A stretch of DNA of 64,000 nt, taken from Bacteroidota bacterium. Lineage in GTDB: Bacteria > Bacteroidota > Bacteroidia > B-17B0 > Aurantibacillaceae. Under the pieces are notes generated by a model. It was not told the origin of the DNA and ran no database searches. It saw only the letters and a program-made list of their open reading frames with translations. This document shows positions 28,028 through 32,079 of the stretch, piece by piece (the first letter of the stretch is position 1; the number at the start of each line of letters is the position of its first letter). The stretch lies in the NCBI GenBank assembly GCA_018267825.1, contig JAFDXR010000003.1, positions 452,952 through 516,951 of the forward strand, given 5' to 3'. A program made the position numbers and the translations under genes.

Positions 28028-28177
28028 TTATTTTGCAGCTTTCTTAGCAGCTTTTTTTGGAGCGGCGGCTTTGCCTGCAGCTTTTGCTTTTGCAGCAGCT
28101 TTTGCACGCGGGCGTAAGCGGCCGAAAGTTCCGATATGGATCTTTCCTCTTCTTGAACGTTGATCACCTTTTCCCAT
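28028..28177 (-). CDS. 30S ribosomal protein THX (bTHX)
   Basis: This 49-residue basic protein starts at the ATG at 28177. The first 24 residues (MGKGDQRSRRGKIHIGTFGR) match the conserved core of THX, a small protein that sits in the head of the 30S subunit in Thermus and is widespread in Bacteroidota. The second half is a low-complexity Ala/Lys tail, longer than the minimal Thermus protein, as often seen in this phylum. A longer in-frame start adds residues unlike the family. It has its own candidate promoter and a strong terminator, so it is likely expressed as a single gene. Confidence 0.9.
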   Translation of the reverse strand: MGKGDQRSRRGKIHIGTFGRLRPRAKAAAKAKAAGKAAAPKKAAKKAAK

Positions 28178-28199
28178 AATTCTGTTTTTAGTTAATGGC

Positions 28200-28207
28200 C
28201 AAAAATA
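28200..28207 (-). promoter_or_regulatory. Candidate -7 element for the THX gene
   Basis: The minus strand reads TATTTTTG, matching TAnnTTTG, 22 nt before the ATG. A TGTG about 19 nt upstream could be a weak -33 element. Confidence 0.4.
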
Positions 28208-28248
28208 TAAATTATTTACCGATTCACACACAGTTTAGCCATCCTTTT

Positions 28249-28740
28249 TTAGTTGCCTGCCGACTCTTTATCAAGATATAATCGCCAGCTGTCTCCTTCT
28301 GCGGTCTGCCGGATGTGCTCATTTCTGGCCAACAGAAAACGGTGCAGATATGCTGTCAGAAAAAGCCTTTCGGCCATTCTGCCCAAAATACCCCAGGGGG
28401 CTTCATAGTAAAATTCATCTTTCATCACCGTAAAACCGTCTTCTTCATGAAACAGGTGGCGATGATGAATTTTACGGAAGATGCCCTGCTCCATTTCATC
28501 GACAAACTCATGCGGTTCGCGGCAAACGGTAATACGCGAGGTGAGTGTTTGCACAATCCCAAAGTGACGTGCTTTCCAGGTCACTGTATCGTTCAGCTTC
28601 ATAACACCCGATGTGATCCCGGCAATGGCTTTTTCGTGAGTACCGACTGTACTGCTCATGTGCACATCTACCGACAATGCCAGCCTGAAACACCTTTCGG
28701 CCGGGGCTTTTATACGGGTATTGATACAAATCAGCGGCAT
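28249..28740 (-). CDS. SRPBCC (START-like) ligand-binding domain protein
   Basis: The product has 163 residues from the ATG at 28740 (MPLICINTRIKAPAERCFRLA); upstream in-frame residues read back into the previous gene and are rejected. The opening strand and helix, the central MKLNDTVTWKARHFGIVQTLTSRI, and the C-terminal helix (GILGRMAERLFLTAYLHRFLLARNEHIR) match the polyketide-cyclase/SRPBCC fold, here in the subgroup found next to TIGR01777 epimerases. These proteins bind small hydrophobic ligands; the ligand is unknown. It starts one base after the epimerase stop codon and is the last gene of a six-gene minus-strand operon. Confidence 0.85.
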   Translation of the reverse strand: MPLICINTRIKAPAERCFRLALSVDVHMSSTVGTHEKAIAGITSGVMKLNDTVTWKARHFGIVQTLTSRITVCREPHEFVDEMEQGIFRKIHHRHLFHEEDGFTVMKDEFYYEAPWGILGRMAERLFLTAYLHRFLLARNEHIRQTAEGDSWRLYLDKESAGN

Positions 28741-28741
28741 G

Positions 28742-29674
28742 TTATTTTTTCTGAAGGAGGTTTTCGATACAACCCAGGGCATCCGGGAATGCAAAGCGAA
28801 AGCCCTGCTCCATGGCCTTTTGTGGGATAGCATTCCGGCTTTTCAAAACAAGTTCAGGCTCCGTCCGGATAAAGAAAGCACCGAAGGCCAGCATCCATGT
28901 TGAAGCAGGGAGCCCAACAGCGACATGCAAACGGGTCCGGAGCCATTTCATAAAATCGGCATTTGATACAGGCTCTGGTGCTGTGCAATTGTAGGTTCCC
29001 TGAACCTCAGCATGAGTGATACACCAGCTTACCATTTCACAGAAATCAGTAACATGCATCCAGCTCATCAGTTGTTTTCCGTTGCCCATACGTCCTCCTA
29101 ACCCTAGTTTTGTCATTTTACAAAGTGTGGGGAACACCCCGCCGGCATTACCGAGTACCATGCCAATACGCAGGTTTACTTTCCGTGTGCCGGGTGTTTC
29201 AAAACTGTAAAACGTTTTCTCCCAGGCCTTGCATACTTCTACAGAAAATCCTTCGCCGATTTCTCCACCCGTTTCAGTCATTTGCAGATCGCCGGCTTCG
29301 CTGTGGCGGTAAATAGTAGCAGATGCTGCATTGATCCATAGCCCGGGGGCCTGCTTCGCCGCAGCAATGGCTTTTCCCAACGCAGCTGTGGGTTCGAGGC
29401 GTGAAGAAAAAATAAGTGCTTTGTTCTTTGCAGTGTAACGGCAATCCACACTTTTGCCACACATATTCAATACCACATCGGCACCTTCAAGTTCTTCAGT
29501 CCAGGCTCCTGCTGTTTTTCCATCCCAGTGTACATAACGTACACCATCATTTACGGTTTCTTTTCCCCGGGTCAGAATTACGATTTCACCCGTTAACGGT
29601 TTCAGGTATCCTGTAAGGCTTTCTCCCAGGAATCCCGAGCCGCCGGCAATCACTATTTTATTCCATTTTTTCAT
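28742..29674 (-). CDS. TIGR01777 family NAD(P)-dependent epimerase (YfcH-like)
   Basis: The 310-residue protein begins with a Rossmann motif (VIAGGSGFLGESLTGYL). It shows the TIGR01777 signatures VRYVHWDGKTAGAW, ADVVLNMCGKSVDCRY and AWEKTFYSFETPGTRKVNLR, then a C-terminal MSWMHVTDFCEMV, VQGTYNCTAPEPVSN and an R-rich DUF1731-like tail ending AFPDALGCIENLL. It is an atypical SDR enzyme related to sugar-nucleotide epimerases; its substrate is not known for any close homologue I can name. It is tightly coupled with the SRPBCC gene (1 bp) and is preceded by two small membrane proteins in the same operon. Confidence 0.9.
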   Translation of the reverse strand: MKKWNKIVIAGGSGFLGESLTGYLKPLTGEIVILTRGKETVNDGVRYVHWDGKTAGAWTEELEGADVVLNMCGKSVDCRYTAKNKALIFSSRLEPTAALGKAIAAAKQAPGLWINAASATIYRHSEAGDLQMTETGGEIGEGFSVEVCKAWEKTFYSFETPGTRKVNLRIGMVLGNAGGVFPTLCKMTKLGLGGRMGNGKQLMSWMHVTDFCEMVSWCITHAEVQGTYNCTAPEPVSNADFMKWLRTRLHVAVGLPASTWMLAFGAFFIRTEPELVLKSRNAIPQKAMEQGFRFAFPDALGCIENLLQKK

Positions 29675-29727: not shown

Positions 29728-30144
29728 TCAGTGTTGTTCTTCGATCCTGATTTGCTGTACCTGTTGTTGTTTTGGTTTTGGAAGAATTAACATAATGAAA
29801 AAGTTGATGAAAAGCAAGATTCCAAGCACCAGTGTAAATACACCCAGCTTTATAGCCAGCTCTTCGATGGTTTGCTGTGATGAAGCCAGCTGATCATACA
29901 CAAGTCTTTCGCCGCTAAAATGAGCATTGTCGCGAATCCGCATGCGCATAAAAGAAAAACCGAAAGCGATCAGGTAGAAACCCGTTTGCATCAGGTTATT
30001 GGTAGCCGTGGCCACAGCTTCTTTTCCCCGAAATGTTTCGATCAGGAAAGCCTTGGTGTTCTTGTGAAGCATTTTAGCAGTCCAGATACTTAATCCGAGT
30101 GTTACAGGAATGTAAATGGTGTAGGCAATGATGTTGTAATTCAT
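29728..30144 (-). CDS. Small membrane protein, paralogue of the next upstream gene
   Basis: The 138-residue protein has hydrophobic segments at about residues 5-25, 52-70 and 95-122 and a charged Gln-rich tail. I do not recognise a named family. It is clearly related to the protein encoded at 30195-30560: both begin IIAYxxY, share a KMLHKN/KILHTN motif, an ATNNL/AANNL motif and GFxF in the second helix, at the same spacing. The two probably arose by tandem duplication. Its place in the GbsR/DCC/TIGR01777 operon suggests an inner-membrane component of that system. Confidence 0.75.
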   Translation of the reverse strand: MNYNIIAYTIYIPVTLGLSIWTAKMLHKNTKAFLIETFRGKEAVATATNNLMQTGFYLIAFGFSFMRMRIRDNAHFSGERLVYDQLASSQQTIEELAIKLGVFTLVLGILLFINFFIMLILPKPKQQQVQQIRIEEQH

Positions 30145-30194: not shown

Positions 30195-30560
30195 TTATTT
30201 TGATTTTGCGAGCTCGTTACGTTTTATGAAAAGCGAAATAATTTTCGGTGCAAAAAACATATTGATAAAATGAAGGATCGACAGGGTTATGAGAATGAAG
30301 CCTTCGGAGTCTGCCATAAATTCAACTACATCGGCAATGCCAGACATCTGGCCACAGGTGTCAAGATGATAAAATGCAAAGCCCGTGTTCACGAGGCAAT
30401 ACCCCACATATAACAGGTTGTTGGCCGCTTCACTGATTGCTTTATCAGGACATTCTTCAAAAAGATAAGCCCTGCCATTGGTGTGCAGGATTTTACCAAC
30501 CCAAACCACAATCAGGAAACTGCACAACAGGTATAATATGTAAGCAATGATGGTATACAT
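30195..30560 (-). CDS. Small membrane protein, paralogue of the neighbour
   Basis: The product has 121 residues from the ATG at 30560 (MYTIIAYILYLLCSFLIVVWVG); a longer frame reads back into the DCC gene and is rejected. There are three hydrophobic segments, with an acidic middle loop (DTCGQMSGIADVVEFMADSEG) and a basic C-terminus (FIKRNELAKSK). It shares the KILHTN, AANNL and GFAF positions with the protein at 29728-30144. It starts two bases after the stop of the DCC-family gene, so translation is probably coupled. The function is unknown. Confidence 0.75.
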   Translation of the reverse strand: MYTIIAYILYLLCSFLIVVWVGKILHTNGRAYLFEECPDKAISEAANNLLYVGYCLVNTGFAFYHLDTCGQMSGIADVVEFMADSEGFILITLSILHFINMFFAPKIISLFIKRNELAKSK

Positions 30561-30562
30561 GA

Positions 30563-31381
30563 TTACAGAATAATGGTTAATACAAGCAGGCGATAAACCA
30601 CCCATGAAATGCTCAGCCAGCCGGGAGCCCCTATATAAGCCACGCGGCGGGCATGCATAAAAAGCATAAAGGCCACCACAAGCATAAAATACCCCAGGTA
30701 TATATATCCGGACAAGACCATAATGTGCGACAAACCGATAGCAGGCAATAATAACAGAGCACCAATGAGCGACACGGTCATCATATTGCCCAGGTAATCA
30801 AATACCGGTGTTTTTCTGCTTCTCACGGCCACAAGCAGGAGTCCCTGGAAAACAATCTGACCGAAACAAATGGCAAACTCACGGTACAGACTGGAGGACG
30901 GTACAAGGCCCTGTAACCTTGAAGCGTAGTGATTGAGAACCAATGAAGTGAAGATACCACACAGGACGATGAAGGCTATGCGAAACCCTGCATGAAAGGT
31001 GGGAACACAGGTTTGCTCCCTGTATGTTCGTGAAGGAGCAATAACCTTGCGATTAAATGATATGAATTTGTACAGCGTATTGAGAAACCCATAAACCGGT
31101 TTGAAATTACCGATGCTTTTGATGTATGGAACATTATAGCCCAGAATGGCCAGGAGACTTTGCAGACCATATATTGCTTCACCTGTTTGTGTATTCACCA
31201 GCGCAATTTCATTGCAGGAACGGGCGGCATCTATTTTCCCGGAAAATGCTCTGACACCTTCCTGGTAAAGGGTGCGACCATTCCCATCGAGCATGCCTGA
31301 TTTGATGAAGGCTCCTGTATAGGCTTTACACAAAGGACACTGATCGTCGTAGAGAAGTGTATGGTTTTTGAGCGTTTTCAT
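30563..31381 (-). CDS. DCC-family (DUF393) thiol-disulfide oxidoreductase-like membrane protein
   Basis: The 272-residue protein opens with the DCC motif LLYDDQCPLCKAY, in which Cys15 and Cys18 form a CxxC pair in a thioredoxin-like fold. The following ~90 residues (ALVNTQTGEAIYGLQSLLAIL) match DUF393. From about residue 130 it continues with five or six transmembrane helices, giving a membrane-anchored redox module. DCC proteins are predicted thiol-disulfide exchange proteins, but physiological partners are mostly unknown. It lies 54 bp after the GbsR/MarR regulator and is followed by two small membrane proteins. Confidence 0.82.
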   Translation of the reverse strand: MKTLKNHTLLYDDQCPLCKAYTGAFIKSGMLDGNGRTLYQEGVRAFSGKIDAARSCNEIALVNTQTGEAIYGLQSLLAILGYNVPYIKSIGNFKPVYGFLNTLYKFISFNRKVIAPSRTYREQTCVPTFHAGFRIAFIVLCGIFTSLVLNHYASRLQGLVPSSSLYREFAICFGQIVFQGLLLVAVRSRKTPVFDYLGNMMTVSLIGALLLLPAIGLSHIMVLSGYIYLGYFMLVVAFMLFMHARRVAYIGAPGWLSISWVVYRLLVLTIIL

Positions 31382-31399
31382 TTTTCTTATTTTCTATAC

Positions 31400-31429
31400 T
31401 TTCAATAATTACTGAAATATATATTGAAA
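31400..31429. promoter_or_regulatory. Candidate second operator dyad upstream of the DCC gene
   Basis: TTTCAATA (31400-31407) and TATTGAAA (31422-31429) are exact inverted copies with a 14-nt spacer. They lie between the regulator gene and the DCC gene. The half-sites resemble the arms of the perfect palindrome at 31982-32005. Confidence 0.4.
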
Positions 31430-31435
31430 AAAATT

Positions 31436-31942
31436 TTACTTGAATAGTTTGAATAAAGCACCCACCAGGGCGTTTTCGTCCAGTTTAATGGCACGTTCCA
31501 GGGCGAAGTCTGCTTTTTCAACCACGCTTTCTATATTGGAAACAGCTTCTACGAGGGCCTTGTGCTGTTTATCGTTTTTATCCCCTTTGGTATTTTTAAG
31601 TTCCTCGAGTACTTTGAGAACAGGCTCTATTTCGCGTTTGCGGCGTTCTTTGATAATTTGTTTGGCGACTTTCCAGATATCTTTTTCGGCCCTGAAATAC
31701 TCTTTGCGTTCACCGGCCCTGAGTTCACGGAACACCAAACCCCAGTCGATCAGGTCGCGGAGATTCATGTTCGCATTCCCTCTCGAAATTTTCAGATCTT
31801 CCATCACCTCTTCGGTGGTCATGGCTTCAGGACTGATGAGGAGTAATGCATGAACCTGTGCCATGGTACGGCTTATGCCCCAGCTGCTGCCCAGGGTTCC
31901 CCAGGTCTGGATAAATTTGGCTTTGGCTTCCTGATGGTTCAT
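31436..31942 (-). CDS. GbsR/MarR family transcriptional regulator
   Basis: The 168-residue protein starts at the ATG at 31942; a longer frame adds seven residues ahead of MNHQEAKAKFIQTWG. The winged-helix core is clear: a helix at MAQVHALLLISPEAM, recognition helix MTTEEVMEDLKISRGNANMNLRDLIDWGLV, and wing AGERKEYFRAEKD. A long C-terminal coiled coil (about residues 95-165) should mediate dimerisation. GbsR-type regulators typically repress transport or osmolyte genes in response to small ligands. This one heads the operon and has a palindrome in its own promoter, so autorepression is likely. The ligand is unknown. Confidence 0.9.
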   Translation of the reverse strand: MNHQEAKAKFIQTWGTLGSSWGISRTMAQVHALLLISPEAMTTEEVMEDLKISRGNANMNLRDLIDWGLVFRELRAGERKEYFRAEKDIWKVAKQIIKERRKREIEPVLKVLEELKNTKGDKNDKQHKALVEAVSNIESVVEKADFALERAIKLDENALVGALFKLFK

Positions 31943-31960: not shown

Positions 31961-31991
31961 CAAATGTATAGCTAGTTATTGAACTTTCAAA
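31961..31991 (-). promoter_or_regulatory. Promoter of the GbsR/DCC operon
   Basis: On the minus strand TTTG (31991-31988), a 19-nt spacer and TACATTTG (31968-31961) match the Bacteroidota consensus exactly. The ATG lies 18 nt after the -7 box. The -33 element is inside the 24-bp palindrome. Confidence 0.65.
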
Positions 31992-32005
31992 ATATTTTGA
32001 AAGTT
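31982..32005. promoter_or_regulatory. Perfect 24-bp palindrome, probable operator of the GbsR-type regulator
   Basis: AACTTTCAAAAT is followed directly by its exact reverse complement, giving 12-bp arms with no spacer. It covers the -33 box of the operon promoter. This is the expected place for a dimeric winged-helix repressor to block RNA polymerase. Confidence 0.65.
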
Positions 32006-32031
32006 TTTTTGAAAAAATTTCCAAACAAGCA

Positions 32032-32061
32032 TAAAAAAAGCCCGTACGACTGGTACGGGCT
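32032..32061 (-). terminator. Rho-independent terminator after glmS
   Basis: AGCCCGTAC (32039-32047), a 5-nt loop and GTACGGGCT (32053-32061) form a perfect 9-bp stem. On the minus strand a run of seven T follows. It lies 18 bp after the glmS stop codon. Confidence 0.9.
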
Positions 32062-32079
32062 ATATTAACAGAAACAGGT

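Follow-up and report, generated by a model that had tools for sequence, protein, structure and literature searches.

A conserved palindrome at the predicted promoter of a GbsR/MarR-type regulator gene is a probable operator of its own operon in Bacteroidota

Introduction

Two Bacillus subtilis proteins of the GbsR subfamily of MarR regulators are the closest described systems: OpcR blocks access to the -35 region, and GbsR is a roadblock, its operator being a pair of half-sites 4 bp apart just downstream of the start site (PMC7396694). A survey of the GbsR family found no consistent gene neighbourhood for the Bacteroidetes group, to which no physiological role could be assigned (PMC6207618). 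The solved structure closest by sequence to the regulator described here is Mj223 of Methanocaldococcus jannaschii (PDB 1KU9), a template for models of GbsR.

We analyzed a 64,000-nucleotide stretch of a Bacteroidota genome (the window) that contains a gene for a GbsR/MarR-type regulator, gbsR, with a predicted primary operator (O1) upstream and a second, degenerate predicted operator (O2) downstream of it. As with OpcR, the regulator is of the GbsR type and would be a dimeric repressor, and an A/T-rich predicted operator lies over a -35-type region, from which RNA polymerase would be excluded sterically (PMC7396694). Unlike OpcR, which controls choline/osmolyte transport, the regulator heads its own DCC1-like/TIGR01777 operon, and the predicted operator is TTTCA-N8-TGAAA in a Bacteroidota promoter. 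B. subtilis GbsR belongs to the same subfamily, and O2, being located downstream of the promoter, is reminiscent of the GbsR roadblock operator (PMC7396694); O2, however, lies about 585 bp from O1, past gbsR, and has an operator at -33 as its partner, and there are no choline or glycine betaine genes near the gbsR of the window. The regulator probably belongs to the Bacteroidetes GbsR group of the survey (PMC6207618); in contrast to that survey, we observe that the gene neighbourhood recurs and that the operator is shared among loci.

A self-controlled GbsR/MarR-type operon is a known kind of arrangement. A literature search for this operator or operon in Bacteroidota found nothing specific, and the operator, the assignment of the operon in Bacteroidota, and the pairing of O1 with O2 were not found in the literature searched. 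The conserved operator and the recurrent operon, together with the regulon members that are detached and the sites found near quinone genes, offer a testable regulon and signal hypothesis for the Bacteroidetes GbsR group. If the O1/O2 layout is true, one regulator would combine the promoter occlusion and the roadblock that are split between OpcR and GbsR in B. subtilis.

The regulator and its downstream operon

The gbsR gene (31436..31942, minus strand) encodes a winged-helix protein of 168 aa. Residues 22-78 match the Pfam MarR_2 family with 27.3 bits, just above the cut-off of 27, identifying an N-terminal winged helix-turn-helix of the MarR type, and residues 4-151 align with Mj223 (1KU9) at E 1e-15; the protein thus resembles Mj223 and GbsR-type proteins in both domains. 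The CudC (GbsR-type) model is matched with E 6e-13 and 48.9 bits, under its equivalog cut-off of 218, and by sequence the gbsR product is a relative and not a CudC. Osmolyte genes were not seen in the recurrent gbsR neighbourhood.

On the same strand, gbsR is followed by the first predicted target gene (30563..31381), which encodes a protein of the DCC1-like thiol-disulfide oxidoreductase type that has a membrane domain (Pfam DCC1-like match at E 2.9e-4, short of the gathering score) and whose orthologues adjoin gbsR. Then come two paralogous genes for small membrane proteins of no Pfam family, hypA (30195..30560) and hypB (29728..30144), a TIGR01777 family oxidoreductase gene (28742..29674, E 5e-78), and, as the probable last gene of the operon, one for an SRPBCC-like protein (28249..28740). 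The SRPBCC-like assignment is weak, the Polyketide_cyc match having an E of 0.07 for the window protein and 0.0055 for an orthologue. Downstream of the operon is a short basic alanine-rich ORF (28028-28231) that we take to resemble a ribosomal THX-type protein. In about six to ten loci, including L077, L060, and similar Chitinophagaceae loci, gbsR is preceded by genes for a type III polyketide synthase (chalcone synthase-like), a methyltransferase, and an FAD oxidoreductase.

A unique palindrome overlaps the predicted gbsR promoter

The original prediction placed an exact 24-bp palindrome at the promoter of the GbsR operon, and this palindrome, AACTTTCAAAATATTTTGAAAGTT, is present in the window at 31982-32005 (O1). 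It is the sole match to AACTTTCAAAATATTTTGAAAGTT in the window at up to three mismatches (expected 0), and no other perfect palindrome there is 24 bp or longer; none arose in 60 first-order Markov simulations with a dinucleotide content similar to that of the window. The 4.8 Mb genome holds one exact copy, which is O1. When the genome was searched for the operator pattern at up to two mismatches, 31 matches were obtained versus 27 for the control, which is approximately background except for O1 and O2. At about 70% A+T, the surrounding sequence might suggest that the palindrome arose by chance in AT-rich intergenic DNA; the simulations speak against that reading, and the near-universal conservation among relatives described below refutes it.

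The layout of the promoter, said to begin inside the palindrome as TTTG-N19-TACATTTG, was likewise found as described. On the minus strand, a TTTG -33 box (31991-31988) within O1 is followed after 19 nt by the -7 box TACATTTG (31968-31961) and then by the gbsR ATG at 31942, in agreement with the vegetative promoters of Bacteroidota (TTTG at -33 and TAnnTTTG at -7, separated by about 19 nt). From this consensus alone, we predict the elements to be the gbsR promoter. Comparison with relatives favours the ATG at 31942 over a TTG at 31963, and the ATG is likely to be the true start codon. On the other side of O1, a terminator-like hairpin with a T-run (AGCCCGTACCAGTCGTACGGGCTTTTTTT, 32030..32066, minus strand) lies 3' of glmS and separates it from the gbsR promoter. 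The hairpin closes glmS, and therefore gbsR probably needs a promoter of its own.

O1 is conserved at gbsR loci of relatives

Conservation of the palindrome where the regulator is conserved had been set beforehand as a test of the operator interpretation. We assembled 81 gbsR loci (80 related loci from other genomes and the window) and scored O1 as (C/T)TTTCA-N8-TGAAA(G/A) in the 100 nt preceding gbsR, allowing at most one mismatch. The site is kept in 79 of the 81 loci, 66 of them exact, compared with 0.4 in shuffled sequences, and it is retained at gbsR irrespective of which gene comes next. TAnnTTTG lies 14-16 nt past O1 in 64 of the 79 loci, the same spacing class as in the window, and T stands at the two positions before GAAA, as part of the TTTG box, in 99% of the 79 O1 sites.

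Across the gbsR loci, the arms TTTCA and TGAAA show little or no variation, and the spacer is variable. Fixed letters also occur beyond the scored core, with TT after the right arm in 96-99% and A before the left arm in 84%. The conserved unit is accordingly (A)(C/T)TTTCA-N8-TGAAA(G/A)(T), with the central AAATATTT free of constraint, and the core in the window is at 31985-32002. Because the spacer varies among relatives while flanking letters such as TT are fixed, the 24-bp perfection of the palindrome in the window is partly incidental. The 24-bp unit with half-site CTTTCAAAAT originally proposed is exact as a palindrome, but the half-site is too long, the core being TTTCA-N8-TGAAA.

The outer letters of the two arms covary (C..G 47, T..A 10, C..A 6, T..G 4; Fisher p 2e-5, with kinship ignored), as would be expected for symmetric reading by a dimer, subject to the same caveat of kinship. 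Several conservative residue changes in the regulator, e.g., K72R and E44D, track the C/T change in the operator, and they are confounded by kinship.

The site co-occurs with gbsR and follows the operon when it is detached

An unbiased search, made without reference to gbsR, was performed in 395 genomes of the class with the exact 16-letter pattern AACTTTCA-N8-TGAAAGTT. The pattern was found in 46 genomes, and a control pattern read backward was found in one. A gbsR relative is encoded in 43 of the 46 site-bearing genomes versus 85 of the 349 site-free genomes (p 2e-20, ignoring kinship). Three site-bearing genomes have no detected gbsR, two of which are incomplete (81% and 59%) and one complete (G418). 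Among the 53 site loci that were fetched, 38 include gbsR, three include only operon genes, and 12 are away from both.

In Mucilaginibacter pedocola and Pedobacter steynii, the DCC1-like/TIGR01777 operon is detached from gbsR, and each genome has a second exact operator site upstream of the detached operon (L138 and L139), with a -7-like box after it (CACATTTG and TATATTTG, respectively). At the M. pedocola detached operon, an O1-like copy and an O2-like copy are separated by 81 bp. Since exact sites precede the detached operons, the operator is tied to the target operon independently of the position of gbsR. Both the co-occurrence across the 395 genomes and the sites at the two detached operons lend support to the proposal that the palindrome is the operator of the regulator encoded beside it.

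The 12 site loci away from gbsR and the operon genes, some of them by unrelated genes, could instead point to a different, unlinked regulator that binds the palindrome and controls gbsR. Such a regulator would have to be reconciled with the strong co-occurrence of site and gbsR, with the sites at detached operons, and with the usual presence of one site per genome, at gbsR whatever gene comes next (of 23 genomes, nearly all have a single site, at gbsR), and we consider it highly unlikely. Very probably, the GbsR/MarR-type regulator whose gene lies immediately downstream has O1 as its operator.

Position of O1 and the proposed mode of repression

We infer binding of the regulator and repression at O1 from sequence, geometry, conservation, co-occurrence, and the detached operons. 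A regulator dimer would read the two inverted half-sites, TTTCA and TGAAA, and, because O1 overlaps the -33 box, the bound dimer would exclude RNA polymerase. The genes repressed in this way would be gbsR itself and the operon of DCC1-like, small membrane protein, TIGR01777, and SRPBCC-like genes, until a signal releases the regulator. Steric repression would be the natural geometry for O1, with OpcR as precedent.

Repression fits best with an operator over the -33 box, and activation is compatible with it: the regulator might activate from O1, or only help RNA polymerase at the -33 box, given that position alone does not fix the sign of regulation and that transcription is predicted to start downstream of O1. 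We regard activation as unlikely, because O1 overlaps the -33 box itself, the typical place for an occluding repressor, and because the characterized GbsR-type proteins (GbsR, OpcR, OpuAR, and CydE) are negative regulators (PMC6207618, PMC7396694).

A second, degenerate predicted operator precedes the first target gene

O2 (31399..31418; gene-strand sequence ATTTCAGTAATTATTGAAAG) lies in the gap that separates gbsR from the DCC1-like gene, 17 nt ahead of the ATG of the latter, and has no TAnnTTTG after it. It went unremarked in the first reading of the sequence. Between the gbsR stop and the next ATG, a site with at most one mismatch is found in 54 of the 81 loci (expected 0.25), mostly 9-40 nt before the ATG (commonest 15-17) and with no close TAnnTTTG behind it. 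The letter before TGAAA is C in 73% of O2 sites, versus T in 99% of O1 sites, and O2 therefore does not look built as a promoter. In these 54 loci, O2 is situated past the promoter and within the transcribed part of the operon, as a roadblock operator would be. The distance from O1 is 568-690 bp among the loci, and no clear helical phase preference was found in these distances.

The weaker O2, directly before the first target gene, would add a downstream block, either as a roadblock or through a DNA loop with O1, and the target genes would thereby be held more tightly than the regulator gene. Roadblock, looping, and titration are roles that O2 may have; the chances that it is a roadblock or loop site downstream of the promoter appear to us evenly balanced.

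Alternatively, the palindrome or O2 could act as an RNA hairpin, in the form of a terminator or a translation element. O2 is transcribed, stands at a short distance ahead of an ATG, and folds slightly better than shuffled sequences (-2.6 versus -0.4 kcal/mol), partly by construction. However, a transcript initiated at the predicted start point would not include O1, which lies farther upstream, the outer and spacer positions of O2 are mostly unpaired, with the outer pair complementary in 18% and G-G the commonest combination, and the same strictly fixed TTTCA/TGAAA is found in both O1 and O2. We consider an RNA hairpin very improbable.

Sites at menaquinone genes in other families

In other Bacteroidota families, exact sites are found upstream of mqnE (L169, L170, L172, and L175), mqnC (L165), a polyprenyl synthetase gene (L178), and a NuoF-type gene (L177). 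The proteins are presumably MqnE and MqnC, names that we assigned from matches to Radical_SAM and CofH_C. At L170 and L172, a TAnnTTTG box comes after the site, in the same layout as at O1. The mqnE examples are mainly from one genus. These sites hint at quinone or redox control in the lineages that have them at mqn genes. In the genome of the window, no operator is near the menaquinone (mqn) genes, and the quinone link is thus not supported in this organism.

We tentatively suggest, as a possibility that we hold to be somewhat doubtful as a whole, that one regulator uses two operators, O1 to occlude the promoter and O2 to block elongation or form a loop, with the target genes controlled separately, and that in some lineages it also controls menaquinone genes (mqnE, mqnC, and polyprenyl synthetase) in response to a quinone or redox signal.

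At a further locus (L147), an exact operator lies upstream of a TetR_C_23 regulator gene, which is followed by an ABC1/UbiB-type kinase gene (837-1475 and 1-840), a quinone-related gene type.
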